From positions 1 through 24,670 of the IMG/VR virus record IMGVR_UViG_3300037264_000311: a DNA stretch of 24,670 bases; one strand, given 5' to 3'. Shown here one piece after another: positions 544-11,503 of this stretch (positions are counted from its first letter, which is position 1; each line of letters starts with the position of its first letter). The notes beneath the pieces were generated by a model that was given only the letters and a program-made list of their open reading frames with translations, did no database searches and was not told where the DNA came from. This DNA is from a virus. The position numbers and the translations under genes were made by a program.

Positions 544-701
544 TCCTTTATGATCCTTCCAAGCTTTTCAAGGTCATAATCCAACTCTTCCCTAAGCCCT
601 TCTAGTTTGAAAATTGAATCATTTACTTGTCCCTCTAATTCATCTAAAACTTTGAAGGCCACCTTTGCTTGCTTTTGTTGCGTAGATAGCTTCTTTGTCA
701 T
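540..701 (-). CDS. small charged helical protein, 53 aa, in the recombination operon
   Basis: A 53-residue frame starting MTKKLSTQQKQAKVAF, with a leucine- and glutamate-rich remainder (LDELEG, LEGLREELDYDLEKLG) that should form an amphipathic helix or short coiled coil. No family is recognised. Its ATG overlaps the stop of the nuclease gene (ATGA) and its own stop overlaps the start of the annealing-protein gene (ATGA), so it sits tightly between nuclease and annealing protein. That position suggests an accessory factor of the recombination pair, but this is inference from context only. Confidence 0.7.
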   Translation of the reverse strand: MTKKLSTQQKQAKVAFKVLDELEGQVNDSIFKLEGLREELDYDLEKLGRIIKE

Positions 702-1915
702 CTATTTTGCTCCATTTCAGGTGTATGGTGAGGCTCTCTTGGAATGAAGTTGTTCTCAGGCTTCTCCCATCCAGGCTCCTTGTAGCAGATCGAGTAGAAC
801 TGGCATCTAGATCCATAGTTCCAGCAGTTGTAGGATCTGGGAATCTCTTCATTGAGGCAGGACTGGAACTGCTCCGAACTCCACCCATACTGAACCTCAG
901 CATCGTAAAGAGTCCACAACCTCCTCACCCAACGAAGCTCCTCAGGAACCATCGACTCCACATATTGCTGAGTCATGTGAGATTGTCTAGCGTAAGGACC
1001 GATCAGAACAAATCCTTCTCGCAAGATCGCTTCAGGAAGCTGCTCGACCCAGAACTCAACATTTGTCCAGTCCTTCGGCTTCTGCGTGAACTGTGTCTCC
1101 CAGATCGGAGACTTGTCAGCCCACACCCCACGCCCGAACGCCCAACGCGTATCATCTTGTATGGGGGGCTGCGCGGGCTGGATCATGCCGTAACAGAAGT
1201 CTGAGTATTGTTTCTTGATCGGGTCAGCGACCTTGGCTTTCTTGAAATGTCCCCTGCCTCCCTTGAGAAGAACATGGATGTAGTAATGCGAGACTGGTTC
1301 CTTGAGCCTAGCCTCAACTCCAAGAGTCCCAACAGCCATTTGAACTGACTCTCGGTACTGCTCAATGTAGTCATCTCCAATCATCGAGGCAGTCTTGAAG
1401 TCATGAATCCCAAGCTGTCCGTCTGACTTCCTTCTAGCAACGAAGTCTGGACGGGACATCTGGATTACATCGAAGCCTTTCAAAGCAACCTTAAATCTCT
1501 CCTCCTCCTCCACAGCAACGATCTCGAAGTCATTCACAATGGTTGGGAGCATCATCTTGCACCAGCCATAGATGAGACCCTGAATAAGAGTACACTGTTC
1601 CATCATTATGTACTCTTCATGCTCTTCATTTAAACCAGACAGAAGAACCATGTCTCTATAAGAGGTGGCTGCATCCTCAACACAACCTTTAAGCTCATCC
1701 CTAAGAGGAATCTTTCCAGAGTCCATCACGAGTCTCATGATAGAGGCTAACCCTTGATGAACATAGATCCCAGTCGAGAGTGCCACAACCTGCTGCTTCT
1801 TGGTCCATCCCAAGGAGTGCAATCCAGCGTGATACCCTAAGTATCTCTTCATCGCACAGTCCATTCCAGCCATGTAGCGGGAACGGTCTGTGAGCCATTC
1901 TTTCTTATCGGTCAA
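698..1915 (-). CDS. PD-(D/E)XK (RecB/Cas4-like) nuclease with C-terminal cysteines
   Basis: 405 residues. The core motif is PDFVARR (about 156-162) followed by HDFKTAS, giving the Asp172-x-Lys174 pair of the PD-(D/E)XK fold. An acidic stretch (VAVEEEE, about 133-139) may supply another metal ligand, and YRESVQMAVG resembles the following Q-motif helix. The C-terminus has C-x6-C-x5-C (NCWNYGSRCQFYSIC), with a lone Cys20 near the N-terminus; this split arrangement resembles the iron-sulfur cluster of Cas4/AddB-type nucleases. The start is TTG, chosen because GGAGGAG lies 7 nt upstream; it overlaps the end of the 3D-domain gene by 11 nt. With the RecT-like gene downstream it probably resects double-stranded ends for recombination. 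The nuclease family is well supported; the iron-sulfur cluster is inference. Confidence 0.87.
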   Translation of the reverse strand: MTDKKEWLTDRSRYMAGMDCAMKRYLGYHAGLHSLGWTKKQQVVALSTGIYVHQGLASIMRLVMDSGKIPLRDELKGCVEDAATSYRDMVLLSGLNEEHEEYIMMEQCTLIQGLIYGWCKMMLPTIVNDFEIVAVEEEERFKVALKGFDVIQMSRPDFVARRKSDGQLGIHDFKTASMIGDDYIEQYRESVQMAVGTLGVEARLKEPVSHYYIHVLLKGGRGHFKKAKVADPIKKQYSDFCYGMIQPAQPPIQDDTRWAFGRGVWADKSPIWETQFTQKPKDWTNVEFWVEQLPEAILREGFVLIGPYARQSHMTQQYVESMVPEELRWVRRLWTLYDAEVQYGWSSEQFQSCLNEEIPRSYNCWNYGSRCQFYSICYKEPGWEKPENNFIPREPHHTPEMEQNR

Positions 1916-4462: not shown

Positions 4463-5347
4463 TTGCCTATTTATAGGCCAGAGGATTATGCCAACAAGAA
4501 GTACGAGAAAGCCAAGTTCCTCATAGACCCCTTGATTCCAAGCGGGGGGATGGTCTTTCTTTACGGTAAGAGTTCCATTGGTAAGAGCCCTGTAACCTGG
4601 AAGATGTCCGGGGCCATTACCAATGGGAATCCGTTCTTCGGTATGCAGTCATCCAAAGCAAGAGTTCTTTACATTGATACAGATAACTCCGAATGGGAGA
4701 ACCAAGAGAGGTTCAGGGCAGTTCAGCCTTTTCCTTCCAATGAACTGTTCCGGTACTGGTTCCCCAATACCATCATTAACATATTCACTTTCAGGGACGA
4801 CTTCCCCGAAGAATACAAGCAGGCTCTCGAATTCAAGCCAGAGCTTGTCATCTGGAACACTCTTGCGAAGATGCAGCATCTCGATATCAAAGATTTCAAC
4901 ACCCCAAGGATGATCCAGGCACAGATCTCGAAGTTGTTCCCACGAGCAGCCCACTTGGTTGTTCACCACGACAATAAGGATAGGCCCGAGTTCAACCCCT
5001 CAGACACCGAAACTTTTGCGGGCTCGCAAGGATGGTACAACAACTCCATTTCTTGCATGAGACTTATTTCCCTTAATCGCAAGAAAGGCTGGGTAAGGCT
5101 TGTCCATACAAAGTGTCAAGTCGCACAACCTGCTGATGATCTTCGACTGTGCTTGAACGTGGAAGATGGAGTTTCACTAGTGGATCTAGACACCGAGATG
5201 GCAAAAGAGATAAGGGATGAGTGGGCAAGGGCTGATGCCTCTGATGCTTCTATTTCTAAGACACAGAAACTAAAGGAGTTGGCTGAGAAACATGGGGTGA
5301 CAACTCGCACGATTAGGAACTGGATTAGGGCCTTGGAACTGCCGTGA
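4463..5347 (+). CDS. RepA-like P-loop ATPase (AAA_25 type) with C-terminal helix-turn-helix
   Basis: 294 residues. Walker A is GKSSIGKS (35-42); YIDTDN (70-75) occupies the position of the next conserved strand; VIWNTLAK (129-136) is the Walker B strand; HLVVHHDNKD (164-173) and the AGSQGWYN segment match the sensor region of RepA-like hexameric ATPases. The C-terminus (TQKLKELAEKHGVTTRTIRNWI) is a helix-turn-helix. The start is TTG with AGGAG 6 nt upstream; an ATG at 4444 is in another frame and stops quickly. In plasmids and phages this family acts in replication as helicase or initiator; the repeat-rich region directly downstream fits that. Odd: the Walker B acidic residue is Asn132 instead of the usual Asp. 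Confidence 0.8.
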   Translation: MPIYRPEDYANKKYEKAKFLIDPLIPSGGMVFLYGKSSIGKSPVTWKMSGAITNGNPFFGMQSSKARVLYIDTDNSEWENQERFRAVQPFPSNELFRYWFPNTIINIFTFRDDFPEEYKQALEFKPELVIWNTLAKMQHLDIKDFNTPRMIQAQISKLFPRAAHLVVHHDNKDRPEFNPSDTETFAGSQGWYNNSISCMRLISLNRKKGWVRLVHTKCQVAQPADDLRLCLNVEDGVSLVDLDTEMAKEIRDEWARADASDASISKTQKLKELAEKHGVTTRTIRNWIRALELP

Positions 5348-5789: not shown

Positions 5790-5956
5790 TAGGAATTTTC
5801 CTCTTTTACTGCTGGAAACTGGTGCTTTAGGCAGGGGAAGTGAAATGCAAGGAGGCAGTCCCAAACTTCGTGTTCCCAAAGCAATCTACCTTCACCTAGA
5901 CAACGAGAGCAGCGGTGAAAATGAGGTTTAATGGTGAATAAGGTAGGATGGTTCAC
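5789..5956 (-). CDS. small Cys/His-rich protein, 55 aa, GTG start
   Basis: The frame opens MNHPTLFTIKPHFHRCSRC and contains CSRCLGEG plus later Cys/His residues (WDCLLAFHFPCLKHQF), consistent with one zinc site. The GTG overlaps the RNA ligase stop (GTGA), AAAGGAG sits just upstream, and its TAA overlaps the ATG of the next gene, so it fills the space exactly between two genes. No family recognised. Confidence 0.62.
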   Translation of the reverse strand: MNHPTLFTIKPHFHRCSRCLGEGRLLWEHEVWDCLLAFHFPCLKHQFPAVKEENS

Positions 5957-6543
5957 TTCACTCCTTTAGGCTTCTCATCCTTCTCTAGAGTAGCCTTGAA
6001 GAAGCATTGTCCAGCCTCGTGAAAGACAACTACTCCTTCTGGGTTCATGAATCCTGGAGATGCTAGAGAACCCTCTGTTCTAAGTCTTGAGACGCAATCT
6101 TTCACAACTTCAGTGGAGAATGGGCCAGCATATATAACAGGTACAACATGACAAGGGGAGACTGGAACAGAATTCCATCTAGTAGTATTGAATAGAGAGA
6201 ACCTCTTCTCTTTCAATCCATACTTCCTCTGAATCCCCGCTCCCCACCATTCCCCATAGTGAGTGCCAAAACCAAGGTTAGTTCTAAGCTCTTCCTGATG
6301 CTCTAGAACCCACCTAGCAAAGCCATAGTTGTCATTTTCTGGAGTAACCCATCTATTCCTAGAGCCAGCTAGAAGGATATCTCCATTTGCATTCCTGTGA
6401 AGCACATGCTCCTCAGCAGTCCCACTAGTTATTGTCCCAGCAGGGATAATGCAAATCTGCCCATTAGTCCCGTCAATCTTCTCAGTGATAATACAATCCC
6501 TGAAAAGTCTTGGAATCTTAGGGAATTCTTTAAAATCACTCAT
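5953..6543 (-). CDS. RNA ligase (Rnl2/DRB0094-like nucleotidyltransferase domain)
   Basis: 196 residues. Motif I is EKIDGTN with Lys22 as the expected AMP-accepting lysine; motif III is YGEWWG (96-101); RFSLFNT (114-120) fits motif IIIa; motif IV is EGVVV (169-173); motif V is FKATLE (182-187). These are the hallmarks of ATP-dependent RNA ligases, which seal 3'-OH/5'-phosphate nicks. The protein is only the ligase core with no extra C-terminal domain. Its ATG overlaps the preceding stop. In phages such enzymes repair tRNAs cut by host defences; that role is inferred. No polynucleotide kinase gene is in this window. Confidence 0.9.
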   Translation of the reverse strand: MSDFKEFPKIPRLFRDCIITEKIDGTNGQICIIPAGTITSGTAEEHVLHRNANGDILLAGSRNRWVTPENDNYGFARWVLEHQEELRTNLGFGTHYGEWWGAGIQRKYGLKEKRFSLFNTTRWNSVPVSPCHVVPVIYAGPFSTEVVKDCVSRLRTEGSLASPGFMNPEGVVVFHEAGQCFFKATLEKDEKPKGVK

Positions 6544-6701
6544 CTCTTTTTCCTCCTCAGTAATCTCATTGAGTTTTTCAACCTGATCCTGAAGCCAAGA
6601 TCAGGAGTCCAGCAACCAAATGAGATTATCCAGAGCAATCCATCTAGAATGTCTCCAATGAGCCCAGGGATATGAACATAGAGAAGCCTCTCCTTTGTCA
6701 T
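6540..6701 (-). CDS. small membrane protein, 53 aa, basic C-terminus
   Basis: MTKERLLYVHIPGLIGDILD leads into a hydrophobic stretch (LIGDILDGLLWIISFGCW) and a strongly basic tail (RIRLKNSMRLLRRKKR), the layout of a single-pass membrane protein with a positive cytoplasmic end. Both ends overlap neighbours (ATGA at the start; stop shared with the RNA ligase start), which supports it as a real gene. AAAGGAG lies inside its own first codons rather than upstream. Function unknown. Confidence 0.68.
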   Translation of the reverse strand: MTKERLLYVHIPGLIGDILDGLLWIISFGCWTPDLGFRIRLKNSMRLLRRKKR

Positions 6702-7276
6702 TTAAATAACTGTCTGTTGAGCTTGTAGAAAAGGATAGCCTCAATCCAAGCTTCCTTGTTTTCCAGGACAATAGGAATAAACTTAGATGCTTTCCTAGTC
6801 TCTAGCCCTTTCTTCTTCTCTGCCCTTATGAACTGCGCTGCTTCAGGGACAGAGTAGATGACATGGTGGAGGGATTTCATCTCTCTTTCTAGGTTTGCTA
6901 GAACACCATTTATTGTGTTAGCACAGCTAACTGCTAAACCATTCTGTGTTGTGATCTCTTCAAACTCAGGAATCATTGGGAAGGATAGCTTTCCATTGTT
7001 TGTATCTTCAGGCATGGCTGGTATTTCCATACTTACAATCTTAGCCGTCCACCAGTTAGCATCAAGTTCTATTGAAGAGTTGCTTGGCCCAGCCTCGATT
7101 CCCATTGTAGTTGTCTTTAGTAATGGCTTTAACTTAGAAACAACATCTAGGGAAAGTCCTACCCTTTCTGCAAAGAGTTTCATGTAGCTCTCTTCAATAT
7201 ACTTAATTACAACCTCAGGAATGGATGCACCACAGAGACTAACTCTCTTAAATGTAGACTTCTTCTTTCTTCCCAT
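6698..7276 (-). CDS. hypothetical protein, 192 aa
   Basis: MGRKKKSTFKRVSLCGASIP, then a mostly helical protein (YIEESYMKLFAERVGLSLDVVSKLK) ending QFIRAEKKKGLETRKASKF..WIEAILFYKLNRQLFK. The ATG at 7276 is preferred to a longer frame because GGAG is about 10 nt upstream and it starts just after the stop of the VWA gene. No motif recognised. Because it directly follows the VWA/metallopeptidase gene it might belong to that module. Confidence 0.75.
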   Translation of the reverse strand: MGRKKKSTFKRVSLCGASIPEVVIKYIEESYMKLFAERVGLSLDVVSKLKPLLKTTTMGIEAGPSNSSIELDANWWTAKIVSMEIPAMPEDTNNGKLSFPMIPEFEEITTQNGLAVSCANTINGVLANLEREMKSLHHVIYSVPEAAQFIRAEKKKGLETRKASKFIPIVLENKEAWIEAILFYKLNRQLFK

Positions 7277-7278
7277 TC

Positions 7279-8466
7279 TCAGCAATCTCCAAGAACTGCG
7301 AGCTTTCCCCAAGGAATGGCTGTGTTCCCATCCTTGGTTACAACCCAAAGCACGGGATAGACTGGCTTTTTCTCAGGGAATGTCCCGAGCCCATCAGTGA
7401 CATAGATCAGACAATCAGGCTTGATCTTCTTGTTCCTAATGTAGTCAAAGGGAGGGTTAAAGTCAGTCCCTCCTCCTCCTACAGCCTTCATCTTCCCAGG
7501 AGAAAGAGGAAACGAAGTGAACTCCTGAACTCCACCAATTGCAGCATCACACCAGAGAAGGACTAGTCTTTGAGGTTTCAACTGGAGACAGGATTGATTG
7601 ACTTGCTGTACGAACTGGCCTAGTTGTTTCTCAGAGATTGACCCAGAGGTATCTACTGCAACAACAACCGTGCTAGTCCCTGATCCCTTCATGCTAGGGA
7701 GATAAAGGTCTAATGCAATACCTCTCCTAGATGGACGCTTTAGGGAATAGTCCTCCTTGGACAGATTGGTAGAAAGAATCATCTTGATAGCTTTCTTATA
7801 GTCGAGGAAGAATCTCTTCTCCTTGGAGATCTCCCTCTTAATTGAGGCAGGGAGCTTCCCTTGTGCTTCAGCTACAGCTATTGCGGTTCTAAGCAGGGAT
7901 TCAAGTTGCTCTTCTACTTCCCCAGCCTTGTCTGGAGAGGGCTCCCTGATCTCACAGAATGGCCCAGGATGAGAGTTTGAGCCATTAGGCGGGCCAGGGG
8001 TGCCAGAACCATTAGAACCCTGCCCTGGGCTATTCTGAGCCTCCTGAAGCAGTCTATTGTAAACCTCATCCCTAGGTAGACCCTTCCATTCAGGCTTGTA
8101 GAATGCTTCCTTGGGGAGTCTATATCCCATGTCATCCAGCATGTCATGGATACAGTGATCCGCTGCTAGATTCCCAATCCTCTTGTTAGGCTTGAGAGCC
8201 ATCCATAGACAATCCTTCCTGATGTTGTGACAAGCCTCATGGATTACAGCAAACACATGGTTGTAGCTAGGGTCTCCAGCAAAGTAGGATGGTCCCCAGA
8301 TATAGCGTGTCCCATCTGTTGCTGTGGTAGGGATGTTCTCCCTAACCCAGGGTGCTCCCATAATCATTACTGCCAGGAAAGGATCATCCAAGACAACCTT
8401 GTTCTTAGCCTTGTCCAGATTCTCCTCTACCTGGTACATATTCAGTTTCTCTTGTTTGGATGCCAT
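7279..8466 (-). CDS. putative metallopeptidase with VWA-like domain (DUF2201-type)
   Basis: 395 residues in two parts. The N-terminal half has HEACH (76-80), an HExxH-type zinc motif, followed by NLAADHCIHDML (99-110), which can supply a further ligand, as in the putative metallopeptidases fused to VWA-like domains. A Gly/Pro/Ser/Asn-rich linker spans about 145-170. The C-terminal half has VVVAVDTSGSIS with the MIDAS-type DxSGS (272-276) and a later GGGGTDFNPPF, so a metal-dependent protein-binding site is likely. Such proteins work with MoxR-type AAA+ ATPases; one is encoded three genes upstream. Substrate unknown. Confidence 0.85.
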   Translation of the reverse strand: MASKQEKLNMYQVEENLDKAKNKVVLDDPFLAVMIMGAPWVRENIPTTATDGTRYIWGPSYFAGDPSYNHVFAVIHEACHNIRKDCLWMALKPNKRIGNLAADHCIHDMLDDMGYRLPKEAFYKPEWKGLPRDEVYNRLLQEAQNSPGQGSNGSGTPGPPNGSNSHPGPFCEIREPSPDKAGEVEEQLESLLRTAIAVAEAQGKLPASIKREISKEKRFFLDYKKAIKMILSTNLSKEDYSLKRPSRRGIALDLYLPSMKGSGTSTVVVAVDTSGSISEKQLGQFVQQVNQSCLQLKPQRLVLLWCDAAIGGVQEFTSFPLSPGKMKAVGGGGTDFNPPFDYIRNKKIKPDCLIYVTDGLGTFPEKKPVYPVLWVVTKDGNTAIPWGKLAVLGDC

Positions 8467-8661
8467 TTAGTAGTACCCACTCAATGCGACATGAGCATGA
8501 CAGTTCAGGCATATCCTCCATGCTGCTTGATGCATAAACCAAGTAGTAACACGAAAGGTATTCCCATCTGCTGTCTTTATGGACTTAAGTTTTGCGCCAC
8601 ACTTGGCACAGAACCTAGGAAGTGTGTAGTGAATGCGAATTACTTTCTTTCTGGATGCCAT
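8467..8661 (-). CDS. small zinc-ribbon protein, 64 aa
   Basis: MASRKKVIRIHYTLPRFCAK with CAKCG at residues 18-22 and CLNCH near 51-55, a two-pair zinc ribbon. It overlaps the upstream gene by 22 nt and abuts the VWA gene (TAA then ATG), whose first codons ATG GCA TCC it shares. It sits between the AAA+ and VWA genes and may be part of that module. No family name recognised. Confidence 0.75.
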   Translation of the reverse strand: MASRKKVIRIHYTLPRFCAKCGAKLKSIKTADGNTFRVTTWFMHQAAWRICLNCHAHVALSGYY

Positions 8662-8936
8662 CTCTTTTTAGCCTTGATCCACTCTATTCCTACGGTTATG
8701 CATCCATATCCCAAGCAGGGACTAAACGATCCTTCACAGATCAATATTGGAAACAGGGGTGATCCTTTTGCTTGATTCCTGATTAAACTATCTAGTCTAT
8801 ATTTGCGGTTATCCCACCATACGAAGTCTAAGAGAAGTTTTTCAGCTAACTCCATCCTTACAGGATCCAAGAGAGTTTTACCTACATTTGAAGTGTAGTG
8901 GATGGAAGCAAGGAATTCGTATCTAGGATCTTCCAT
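8640..8936 (-). CDS. hypothetical protein, 98 aa
   Basis: MEDPRYEFLASIHYTSNVGK, then a leucine-rich helix (MELAEKLLLDFVWWDNRKY) and a hydrophobic stretch with three cysteines (FPILICEGSFSPCLGYGCIT). No clear Shine-Dalgarno, but it lies 17 nt after the AAA+ gene and is probably read through by coupling. No family recognised; position within the AAA+/VWA cluster is the only functional hint. Confidence 0.68.
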   Translation of the reverse strand: MEDPRYEFLASIHYTSNVGKTLLDPVRMELAEKLLLDFVWWDNRKYRLDSLIRNQAKGSPLFPILICEGSFSPCLGYGCITVGIEWIKAKKRWHPERK

Positions 8937-8953
8937 AGTTTCAGGCTAAAGCT

Positions 8954-10045
8954 CTACAACAGGATGTTCTGATTGTCCTTGATCCACTCAACCCTCTGTG
9001 AAGAATTGGCAAATGCTACTAGCTTCTTTGCCAGATCCTGAGTAATCAGGGTTTGGAAGTCCTTAGGGAGCCTTCGGACAAACTTCATCAAGGGAGTGAA
9101 CTCTTCCTTCTTGGTGCATTTGGTTACTAGCAAAGCTGCTTGTGTAAACAAGCAACCCGGCTTTCTTGGAATTCTGCAACCCTCGGGATCAGAGATGATC
9201 TCATCAAAGGGAGAAAGCTCATCCACTGAATCAGCCCAACCCTTGAACTCCATGGTGACAGGGAATCCAATGGTTCCAGCGATCAAGTCCCAATCCCTCT
9301 CCTCACCAGACTGGTCCATGAGGTTAGCTACCCCTTCCCAGGAACGATGAGTAGGGTGAGCATAGGAGAAGTCGTTGTAGGTCTCCCAGAATGCCTTTTT
9401 GGTCATCCCACCGGCACCCTCGTTAGGCCAGAACTCCACATGGAGCAGATCAGGGCGAACATTCTTGATGAAAGCTGTAGGAAGGTAATGCTTCCCTCTA
9501 GCCAGCATGTAATCTACCCAAGTTTCAGGCTTAGGAGGCTTCAGATAGATGATTGTAAGTCTATTGACAGTGGTAGGAGGAAGTTCTACGACTCCAACGT
9601 TGTCATCTGAAGTGTTCCCCGCTCCAATGATGAATGTTCCAGGAGGGAAAGCATAGAGATCTCTCCCTTCCAATAGCTTGTTAGCAGACTTCAGAGTTGT
9701 AGCATTTACAATGGTCAACTCATCTAGTGCAATCAGCGGTCCCTTCCCCGTTCTCTTGTATGATTCCTCCGCCATAAAGTGAACCATTGATGCTGTGGGG
9801 ACTGTACGAGTAACTCCATCTTCACCCTTGATAGGGAAATTGATCCCTGAGAGATCCGTGGGATCATGGTTCTCAAGTCTGAAGTTGAGAGTCTCTCTCC
9901 CAGTAGCAGAGGAATAAGCCTCCATGCTCTGAGTCTTCCCAATCCCTCTAGCTCCAAGGATCAGAGGAACCCTTCCAGCCTTCTCACAGCGCTGCAACTT
10001 TGCGGGTAGAGCCTCGAATGGAGTCCAAATGACGTTCTTTTCCAT
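8954..10045 (-). CDS. MoxR/CobS-type AAA+ ATPase
   Basis: 363 residues. Walker A GARGIGKT (31-38), Walker B LIALDE (104-109), sensor-1-like IIGAGNTSDD (139-148) and a TTVNRL segment (158-163) with a candidate arginine finger give a complete AAA+ core of the MoxR/dynein-like class. The C-terminal part (from about 200) is a helical lid of unknown specificity. MoxR ATPases remodel protein complexes together with VWA-domain partners; the VWA/metallopeptidase gene is downstream and another conserved partner upstream. AGAGGA is about 8 nt before the ATG. Confidence 0.88.
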   Translation of the reverse strand: MEKNVIWTPFEALPAKLQRCEKAGRVPLILGARGIGKTQSMEAYSSATGRETLNFRLENHDPTDLSGINFPIKGEDGVTRTVPTASMVHFMAEESYKRTGKGPLIALDELTIVNATTLKSANKLLEGRDLYAFPPGTFIIGAGNTSDDNVGVVELPPTTVNRLTIIYLKPPKPETWVDYMLARGKHYLPTAFIKNVRPDLLHVEFWPNEGAGGMTKKAFWETYNDFSYAHPTHRSWEGVANLMDQSGEERDWDLIAGTIGFPVTMEFKGWADSVDELSPFDEIISDPEGCRIPRKPGCLFTQAALLVTKCTKKEEFTPLMKFVRRLPKDFQTLITQDLAKKLVAFANSSQRVEWIKDNQNILL

Positions 10046-10058
10046 TTCTACATCCTCT

Positions 10059-10382
10059 CTATGTATTGATTAGAAGAAGGGTTTGCGCAGTCTTATAGAG
10101 TTCTTTTGCCTTTTCCCAGTAAGGCATCTTAGAAATCTCATCCTTAGAGACAGTCCAATCTCCAAGGGATGCAAACTTCTCCCCTAGAACCCTAAGAGCT
10201 TTCTTGTTCTTCCCAATGACAATTGCAAAACCTGATGGAGAGTGGGTCAGGGAGTAGCCCCTGAAGCCTGTATTCTTAATGCTGCTCTTTATGAGTACAA
10301 TCCCAGGGGCTATCTCCTCTCCTATCAGTGTTATCTCTCCTGCTCCTCTCCATACCTTGGTAGGAACTTTCTTATAGCGCAT
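10059..10382 (-). CDS. hypothetical protein, 107 aa, paralogue of the next gene upstream
   Basis: MRYKKVPTKVWRGAGEITLI, with core segments RGYSLTHSPSGFAIVIGKNK, ALRVLGEKFASLGDW and MPYWEKAKELYKTA. The adjacent upstream gene has the same order of elements (RGWMLQHN, LLVGKKLASICSW, EPYWDEVQRIRGTA), so the two look like a diverged tandem duplication. AGGA lies 7 nt upstream and the start overlaps the previous gene by 11 nt. Located between the conserved partner and the AAA+ ATPase genes. Family and function unknown. Confidence 0.75.
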   Translation of the reverse strand: MRYKKVPTKVWRGAGEITLIGEEIAPGIVLIKSSIKNTGFRGYSLTHSPSGFAIVIGKNKKALRVLGEKFASLGDWTVSKDEISKMPYWEKAKELYKTAQTLLLINT

Positions 10383-10704
10383 GGAAAATTCCTAGCTTAA
10401 GGGCTGTTCCTCTGATTCTTTGTACCTCATCCCAATATGGCTCTTTCATAATGTCCCTAAGAAGGGCATTCCAGCTACAAATAGAAGCCAACTTCTTCCC
10501 TACAAGCAGAACTGTTGACTTCCTCCTTCCTACCCCTAAACAAGTGAACCATTTAATGTTATGCTGTAGCATCCAGCCTCTAAGACTTCTCTGAATATTC
10601 AATTCTCTCGTGTCAACTAGAGACAGTCCTGGACATATGACTTTGTTAGATACCAAGAATCCCTCTAGCTTTCTCCGAGTAATGACGCCTGAGAGAAGCA
10701 TCAT
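10372..10704 (-). CDS. hypothetical protein, 110 aa, paralogue of the next gene downstream
   Basis: MMLLSGVITRRKLEGFLVSN, then RGWMLQHNIKWFTCLG, STVLLVGKKLASICSWNALL and KEPYWDEVQRIRGTA, parallel to the neighbouring 107-aa protein. Its first 59 nt overlap the end of the large gene upstream, so the second ATG or an alternative start further in is possible. No motif recognised. Confidence 0.7.
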   Translation of the reverse strand: MMLLSGVITRRKLEGFLVSNKVICPGLSLVDTRELNIQRSLRGWMLQHNIKWFTCLGVGRRKSTVLLVGKKLASICSWNALLRDIMKEPYWDEVQRIRGTALKLGIFHAL

Positions 10705-11503
10705 TCCTCAACTGTTCCACAGTAGAAGTCTCCTCACCCTTTGGAGGGAGAAGATCATTTGCAATCTTGTCAATCAGGATCTGCACAACTGGGTCATTGG
10801 TGAAGTTGAGGTTAGGGAGGACTTCCACAACGTCTCTGAGGTTAGTAAGAATCGTGTCATGCATCCTCTTGCCATCCCCATAGTTGTCCAGCTTGTCTAC
10901 GAGCAACTGAATAGGCTTAAGGATCCTAGAGTGCAGATCAGTCATAGCCACCTTGACCTTATCCGCATTCTCAGAGTCAACATCAGCCTTGATCCTTTCC
11001 AGTTCCTCCTCAGGAACATCAAGCCTGAAGTCTGCTCCTCTCAGGATTGGGACAAAGCGAATGGTGCTATAGAACATTCCCTTTAGCTTGTCAGGAGAGG
11101 GATACCATGAAGGAACCAGAGACTTGAGAATGATCTTGTCCTCAAGCACTGTCTCCTCATAGTGCTCGAAGAACTTCTCCCTAGCCTCGTGGAAGGAGTC
11201 AATGCACTTACTGATTCTCTCCCTATAGAAAGTGAATCCTGAAGTCTTGAAGACTCTAGCTCCTCTATCCTCCCAAGGAGAGGTAATGTCGTAGTGAGTG
11301 GTTCTAATCATCCTCCCAGCAGCTAGAGCAGCATCCTTGAACCCACCATGAGTACAGAGTTTGATCGTGGTCTTGCTCTTACTCCTGGCAATGTCAAAGT
11401 CAGAAGAGACCTTATCCTCTGCGATCCCTGATCTGACTTCCCCTTCCCACATTCCAATTGTGAGTTTAGCTCCCATGAGGGAGCCATTGATTTGACTTGT
11501 CAT
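10646..11503 (-). CDS. conserved partner of phage MoxR/VWA cassettes (DUF3150-like), 285 aa
   Basis: MTSQINGSLMGAKLTIGMWE; landmarks are TTHYDITSPWEDRGARVF (about 88-105), FYRERI..FHEAREKFFEHYEE, a YPSPDKLKGMFY segment, GADFRLDVPEEELERIKADV and a late helical LTNLRDVVEVLPNLNFTND. I recognise this order from proteins of phages and mobile elements that lie beside MoxR-type ATPases and VWA proteins; the DUF3150 label is from memory and uncertain. No catalytic motif is visible, so it is probably a structural or adaptor subunit. A strong AAGGAG precedes the ATG, and the start overlaps the preceding stop. Confidence 0.78.
   Translation of the reverse strand: MTSQINGSLMGAKLTIGMWEGEVRSGIAEDKVSSDFDIARSKSKTTIKLCTHGGFKDAALAAGRMIRTTHYDITSPWEDRGARVFKTSGFTFYRERISKCIDSFHEAREKFFEHYEETVLEDKIILKSLVPSWYPSPDKLKGMFYSTIRFVPILRGADFRLDVPEEELERIKADVDSENADKVKVAMTDLHSRILKPIQLLVDKLDNYGDGKRMHDTILTNLRDVVEVLPNLNFTNDPVVQILIDKIANDLLPPKGEETSTVEQLRNDASLRRHYSEKARGILGI

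Follow-up and report, generated by a model that had tools for sequence, protein, structure and literature searches.

A MoxR ATPase, a metallopeptidase-VWA protein and a DUF3150-family protein form a linked gene set in phages and on megaplasmids

The DNA analysed here, the 24,670 bases of the IMG/VR virus record IMGVR_UViG_3300037264_000311 (hereafter, the window), carries in its right half, on the plus strand, genes for the terminase small subunit, the terminase large subunit, the portal and the major head protein, and because of this gene content we assign its source to the tailed phages. On the minus strand, positions 7279-11503 encode an intact MoxR-type AAA+ ATPase, a DUF2201 protein that combines a metallopeptidase-type domain with a von Willebrand factor A (VWA) domain, and a 285-amino-acid (aa) protein of the DUF3150 family. 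All seven open reading frames (ORFs) that a preliminary description of this stretch had placed in the block are present where it placed them. In the order of transcription, they are the 285-aa DUF3150-like protein (10646..11503), a putative third component beside the other two; ORFs of 110 aa (10372..10704) and 107 aa (10059..10382); the 363-aa MoxR ATPase (8954..10045); an orphan ORF of 98 aa (8640..8936); a 64-aa zinc-ribbon-like protein with two CxxC motifs (8467..8661; DZR match at 4e-4, below the cut-off); and the 395-aa VWA protein (7279..8466). The ATG of the 285-aa gene is preceded by a clear ribosome site, AAAAAGGAG. Ribosome sites are poorer, and starts uncertain, for several of the small ORFs; the start of the 110-aa ORF is uncertain because its ATG lies inside the 285-aa gene, with an overlap of 59 bases.

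The 363-aa protein, a relative of N4 gp24, matches AAA_5 in Pfam (1.8e-4) and phrog_1297, annotated 'ATPase', in PHROG (2.6e-53), and the best match of its profile in the PDB is midasin (1.2e-38), which is consistent with the helix-2 insert and hexameric ring of the MoxR clade. It carries G34/G36/K37/T38, D108/E109, N144, R162 and R234, which we take to be Walker A, Walker B, sensor 1, the arginine finger and sensor 2, respectively. G34, K37, N144, R162 and R234 are invariant in 131 of 131 relatives and D108 is found in 127 of them, in agreement with the earlier claim that the ATPase is complete. Single-sequence scans of viral contigs with this protein and with the 285-aa protein each gave no match, and alignments were needed for matches to appear.

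The 395-aa protein, a relative of N4 gp25, consists of an N-terminal HExxH metallopeptidase-type domain (residues ~14-259) and a C-terminal VWA domain with a metal ion-dependent adhesion site (MIDAS; residues 267-392). The corresponding Pfam families, DUF2201_N (PF13203, putative metallopeptidase; 1e-23) and DUF2201 (PF09967, VWA-like; 8.9e-24), both score above the gathering threshold (84.7 versus 23.2 bits and 84.4 versus 26.4 bits, respectively), and the protein matches phrog_1314 at 2.8e-78. Among 144 aligned VWA relatives, part of which were fetched by motif patterns covering some of the scored columns, the HExxH motif at positions 76-80 is retained as H in 143, E in 142 and H in 144 proteins, whereas D103 and the complete MIDAS (DxSxS, T, D; residues D272, S274, S276, T334 and D358) are each conserved in all 144. 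The same HExxH, D103 and MIDAS positions are conserved in 55 of 55 VWA proteins that were retrieved through DUF3150 instead, so that the proposed fusion of a HEACH metallopeptidase with a MIDAS-bearing VWA domain is upheld by motif conservation in both sets. Judged from their sequences, the ATPase and the VWA protein hold the residues that a MoxR/MIDAS remodeller would require. The AlphaFold2 (AF2) model of the VWA protein has a mean predicted local distance difference test (pLDDT) score of 84.6; its VWA half aligns to VWA domains at Z of about 12, and weak Foldseek matches include the MDN1 MIDAS domain (E 0.0095) and a NorQD chain (E 0.49), the metallopeptidase part being barely tested by these fold searches. 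At E 1e-5, the window ATPase has matches in 604 and the window VWA protein in 502 of 50,697 phage records, all at less than 60% identity; given these counts and the known gp24/gp25 pair of N4, the suggestion that such a pair is exceptional in a phage has to be abandoned. An HNH endonuclease identity, the label of phrog_1314, was rejected, as Pfam found only the metallopeptidase and VWA domains. The wording 'HNH endonuclease' is applied to this family in PHROG and in records such as NC_021772 and NC_070860; as the searches run found no HNH domain, many public genomes probably carry this label in error.

The third protein is homologous over its full length to annotated DUF3150 members, with tblastn matches to the DUF3150 protein of Synechococcus phage MinM2 (2e-17) and to plasmid proteins (8e-15). 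DUF3150 is an NCBI label; no model of that name matched the 285-aa protein, which had no match in Pfam, PHROG or NCBIfam, or the MinM2 protein that bears the label, and a limited literature search found no mention of DUF3150. An AF2 model built from 30 sequences is of high quality (mean pLDDT 93.7, predicted template modelling score 0.87) and combines a small beta region with long helices. It has no confident match in the PDB (best Foldseek E 0.72), and the best VIA-align Z, 7.6 to vinculin-type helical bundles, falls within the range of common arrangements; the missing match does not show that the fold is new. Eight predicted viral proteins, one of them labelled DUF3150, match the model at E <1e-3. 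A weaker structural match, S5YZA3 of Mycobacterium phage Dylan in BFVD (E 0.032, probability 0.85), is a possible, very distant relative. One family member (L071:2829-3854) has an additional C-terminal charged linker and a zinc-ribbon-like tail. In another (L016), a PtuB match (19.9 bits versus a cut-off of 150) and a weak ZorA match (E 0.0039) were set aside.

The three genes are strongly linked. A scan of viral contigs with the VWA alignment yielded 554 relatives, of which the best 80 were kept, with genes in the loci called by hidden Markov model at E <1e-8 and the window itself (L001) left out. Among these best 80 of 554, 29 loci contain MoxR, VWA and DUF3150, 41 contain MoxR and VWA, two contain DUF3150 and VWA, and eight contain VWA alone, always with the genes on the same strand; thus, MoxR is present in 70 and DUF3150 in 31 of the 80, the latter fraction not being a population rate, given that these loci are the nearest to the window VWA protein. 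In nine of the 10 loci without MoxR, L053 being the exception, the VWA ORF begins less than 2.4 kb from a contig end. When DUF3150 alone served as the query, the converse scan recovered 57 viral and 17 bacterial loci (five contigs are common to the two viral sets), and all three genes are present in 67 of these 74. In each of the remaining seven, the contig stops at DUF3150 on the flank where the absent gene would be expected, and none lacks both partners. The linkage holds across three gene orders, most often MoxR-DUF3150-VWA; the order in the window, DUF3150-MoxR-VWA, is found in 5 of the 80 and 2 of the 57 loci. Both scans agree with the earlier proposal that the 285-aa protein belongs to a family recurring beside MoxR/VWA pairs, and the synteny across phages that had been put forward as a check is conserved. 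The MoxR/VWA pair itself was already known; the novelty lies in its third gene, DUF3150.

DUF3150 also separates two branches of the family. When whole records were searched, both of two positive controls gave a DUF3150 match and none of 34 two-gene records did; N4, phage G and K64-1 are among the 34, and 26 are IMG/VR contigs, which may be fragments. Mapping the DUF3150 label onto a tree of 90 VWA proteins takes 14 changes versus 28.4 in shuffles, a number as low being reached in 0 of 500, although some of the unlabelled rows inside DUF3150 clades (L027, L057, L077, L083 and L086) are cut contigs; the window VWA protein sits on a long branch, and its placement is uncertain. The divergence of MoxR and that of VWA are correlated at Spearman 0.85-0.87, compared with 0.55-0.69 for either against the neighbouring DNA polymerase.

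The four embedded genes behave differently from the three main ones. The 107-aa and 110-aa ORFs match each other at E 6.7e-11 in a small local database and are paralogues, as had been noted from the outset; the 107-aa ORF had no relative in the phage collection. Among 101 three-gene loci, a number that includes contigs found in both scans, 45 are uninterrupted by other genes, and none of the four small genes of the window has a relative among the inner genes of the 101. Their role as machine parts, and with it the view that they belong to the unit, was therefore rejected, and the four, which are not conserved, are probably passengers. An identity of the 107/110-aa pair with the paralogous genes MM2_66-68 of MinM2 was also discarded, with no similarity at E 1. 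An unrelated 225-aa family is present in 16 of the 41 loci that have MoxR and VWA without DUF3150 (L013, L019, L024 and L040 among them), usually between the two genes, and in 1 of the 31 DUF3150 loci, where it lies downstream (L082); 10 of the 16 members scanned are phrog_1965-like. The idea that it is a diverged DUF3150 finds no support, the two profiles not matching (hhalign probability 0.3%), and relatedness, as a difference between clades, may explain part of this split.

Gene neighbourhoods in the 80 viral loci place the set with replication genes. DNA polymerase (34 members) is always downstream on the same strand, and SNF2-type helicase (20 of 20), RecB-like nuclease (16 of 16) and primase (17 of 17) also share the strand, whereas TerS-family genes (14 of 14) and DnaG/DnaB-type primase-helicase genes (14 of 14) lie on the opposite one. 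For the three-gene form, reduction at less than 65% VWA identity left 53 of 68 viral loci; of their 223 large neighbours, 111, belonging to 25 loci, were scanned. These neighbours are led by SNF2-type helicase (13), PD-(D/E)XK nuclease (10), DNA polymerase (8) and primase (6), and their 25 commonest PHROGs include neither head nor tail families. The window agrees in part, its block containing a PD-(D/E)XK nuclease and an RNA ligase, with the terminase and capsid genes running the opposite way. The context of the three-gene form favours a role in DNA metabolism over virion maturation, whereas that of the jumbo-phage form favours maturation.

The triplet is also found on plasmids. Plasmids of Burkholderia ubonensis, Cupriavidus basilensis and Rhodovastum atsumiense carry it contiguously, and VirB-type secretion genes come after it in B. 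ubonensis. At E 0.01, 37 of 72,556 plasmids match the window DUF3150 protein, and 36 of the 37 also carry the VWA protein. PRTRC ThiF is present on 34 of these 37, at a median distance of 8.0 kb, but because PRTRC ThiF itself occurs on 332 plasmids, this link may reflect the backbone of one plasmid lineage. Synechocystis pSYSA carries a MoxR-VWA pair with no annotated third gene beside it. The 75-kb record NZ_CP110465.1 (L167), entered as the A. baumannii plasmid pRBH2-3, has the two-gene pair adjoining a DNA-directed RNA polymerase gene, in the fashion of N4-like phage genomes.

The reading that we favour, with modest rather than strong confidence, is that the three genes encode one ATP-driven remodelling machine that acts early or in the middle of infection on a replication-linked or host target and not primarily on the virion. 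Its ring and VWA-adaptor steps follow the biology of the MoxR/VWA systems midasin, RavA-ViaA and CbbQ-CbbO. The MoxR protein would form an AAA+ ring on which the VWA protein docks, gripping a client through the MIDAS metal site; the zinc-metallopeptidase-type domain beside the grip could clip that client. DUF3150 would be a dedicated third subunit, either a scaffold or a client adaptor, and would define a three-gene subtype of the N4 gp24/gp25 machine. The genes would be expressed with the early or middle class, and the client would be a replication-linked complex or a host protein that phages and conjugative megaplasmids alike encounter. Such a target is more likely than the virion because the triplet occurs on megaplasmids and is placed with replication genes. 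From the preliminary description, a MoxR/VWA protein-remodelling machine and a partner family recurring beside such pairs are retained, and the embedded genes as parts of the unit and the supposed exceptionality are given up; the data gathered do not distinguish among the host takeover, counter-defence and maturation roles that it had offered. A more speculative extension, which we regard as possible but doubtful, is that many phages and megaplasmids share the core of a mobile AAA+ machine, MoxR with metallopeptidase-VWA, and that its third place is taken by DUF3150 in one large branch and by the 225-aa protein in other loci. This exchangeable third subunit would choose the client, and invading DNA would use the protease-armed remodeller at an early stage.

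Several observations weigh against a single three-part machine acting away from the virion. Because DUF3150 is absent from the two-gene records, the two-gene machines work without it. On the Manganitrophus plasmid CP114559.1 (L011), the one clear exception to the linkage of DUF3150 with VWA, DUF3150 lies beside an AAA-DUF1257-DUF2997 set, with no VWA match, and may serve a second AAA system. The divergence of DUF3150 is also highly correlated with that of the DNA polymerase (0.73) and, the polymerase correlations being high as well, much of the co-divergence signal is shared genome history. Neither Foldseek nor VIA-align found a solved relative that would show how DUF3150 binds. The window peptidase may be impaired: at +5 of HExxH, where 142 of 144 relatives have histidine (a regularity that is our own description of the alignment and not a published criterion), the window has D85. 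Its VWA protein is the sole one of the 144 with Asp at this position and the sole one with His at 107, where 142 have Asn, which perhaps represents a swap of zinc ligands or a loss of activity. Finally, the two-gene form is flanked by virion structural genes and adjoins an Hsp70 in K64-1, it lies beside genes for a minor-tail and an immunoglobulin-like protein in RHph_I1_6, and virion proteins of Roseobacter phage RPP1 are described as mapping near the N4 gp24/25 homologues (PMC4193335); these three contexts favour assembly.

Virion assembly or maturation, in which the pair would fold tail or head parts and the metallopeptidase would trim structural proteins, is the first alternative to be weighed. 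Such a role is proposed for the group 2.2 jumbo phages in a jumbo-phage survey (PMC7824862) and is inferred for p618/p892 of Acidianus two-tailed virus, for which binding of the two proteins and a link to the tail are reported (PMC4124505); the K64-1 and RHph_I1_6 contexts point the same way. Against it, the three-gene loci lie among replication genes with the TerS-family genes uniformly on the opposite strand, the triplet resides on megaplasmids, in one case adjoining type IV secretion genes, and the N4 pair is described as middle, not late (PMC4193335), and we consider this role rather unlikely for the three-gene set. Virion assembly is the sole published proposal that we found for bacterial phages and may explain only part of the picture. 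DUF3150, being always linked to one branch of the machine, absent from the other, present also on megaplasmids and well folded in its model with no confident solved relative, offers a handle for finding the target.

Counter-defence or host takeover, that is, the dismantling or cleavage of a host complex, defensive or regulatory, that incoming DNA encounters, would explain why the triplet is common to phages and conjugative megaplasmids, and both the conjugation genes adjoining it on pATCC31433 and its placement with replication genes fit such a role. Membership of the window proteins among defence genes was rejected, PADLOC giving no match for any of them, although PADLOC covers defence genes and not counter-defence. 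Anti-defence genes are typically patchy in distribution, unlike the core pair of the N4-like phages. That pair accounts for 2 of the 14 core genes in 25 N4-like phages, according to the comparison in PMC4193335, and we judge counter-defence unlikely. A quite improbable possibility is a chaperone that loads a metallocofactor or metal cluster into a phage metalloenzyme, in the manner of CoxD/CoxE, NorQ/NorD and the chelatases, with HExxH binding metal without cutting: MoxR/VWA relatives, whose biology is partly reviewed in PMC7159879, perform such loading, and a NorQD chain is among the weak fold matches, but there is no metalloenzyme family among the 25 commonest neighbour families, and HExxH and the +5 histidine are strictly constrained, as at a catalytic site. 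That unrelated genes came together by chance in a gene-dense phage, as the four passenger-like embedded genes might suggest, is refuted for the three main genes by their linkage in 67 of 74 and 31 of 80 loci and can practically be dismissed.

The remainder of the block is mostly on the minus strand. Immediately downstream of the VWA gene lies an ORF without an assigned function (6698..7348, minus strand), for which the ATG at 7276 (192 aa) is a likelier start than the listed TTG and which has no match in the phage collection. It is followed by an RNA ligase family protein (5953..6543, minus strand; PF09414 1.4e-9, phrog_548 4.3e-24) and, farther on, by the PD-(D/E)XK (RecB-like) nuclease (698..1915, minus strand; PF12705 6.8e-7, phrog_1218 1.4e-4). 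An AAA_25 ATPase with a C-terminal helix-turn-helix-like end (4463-5347) is encoded on the plus strand within this block, and a 118-aa protein with a 3D domain (PF06725) on the minus strand (1905-2261).

Among known systems, Acidianus two-tailed virus resembles the window in having a viral MoxR ATPase, p618, with a VWA partner, p892 (PMC4124505), but differs in that the system lacks the peptidase domain, as stated in PMC7824862, and acts in the virion. The MoxR-vWA ternary conflict systems, as outlined in part of PMC7159879, likewise combine MoxR and vWA with a third conserved component; the components named there (VMAP, iSTAND, FtsH, beta-propeller) differ from DUF3150, a term that does not occur in the text of that paper. 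The jumbo-phage pair has the same domain make-up, with an N-terminal metallopeptidase fused to vWA, and it is for this pair that the survey proposes virion assembly and processing (PMC7824862); unlike the window, jumbo phage K64-1 has no third gene and carries the pair among structural genes. The gp24/gp25 core pair of Escherichia phage N4 (Schitoviridae), described as having 'no known function' (PMC4193335), comprises the same two proteins in the same order and on the same strand as in the window; alignments of the window proteins to the N4-like ones cover most of their length and show 23-29% identity, and N4 gp25 matches DUF2201_N at 293 bits. N4 and seven other cultured two-gene phages, searched whole, are without DUF3150, which the window has. 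The triplets of MinM2 and of the Burkholderiales megaplasmids contain all three components, as the window does; they have the order MoxR-DUF3150-VWA, and the window has DUF3150-MoxR-VWA with D85 and H107 in its VWA protein.

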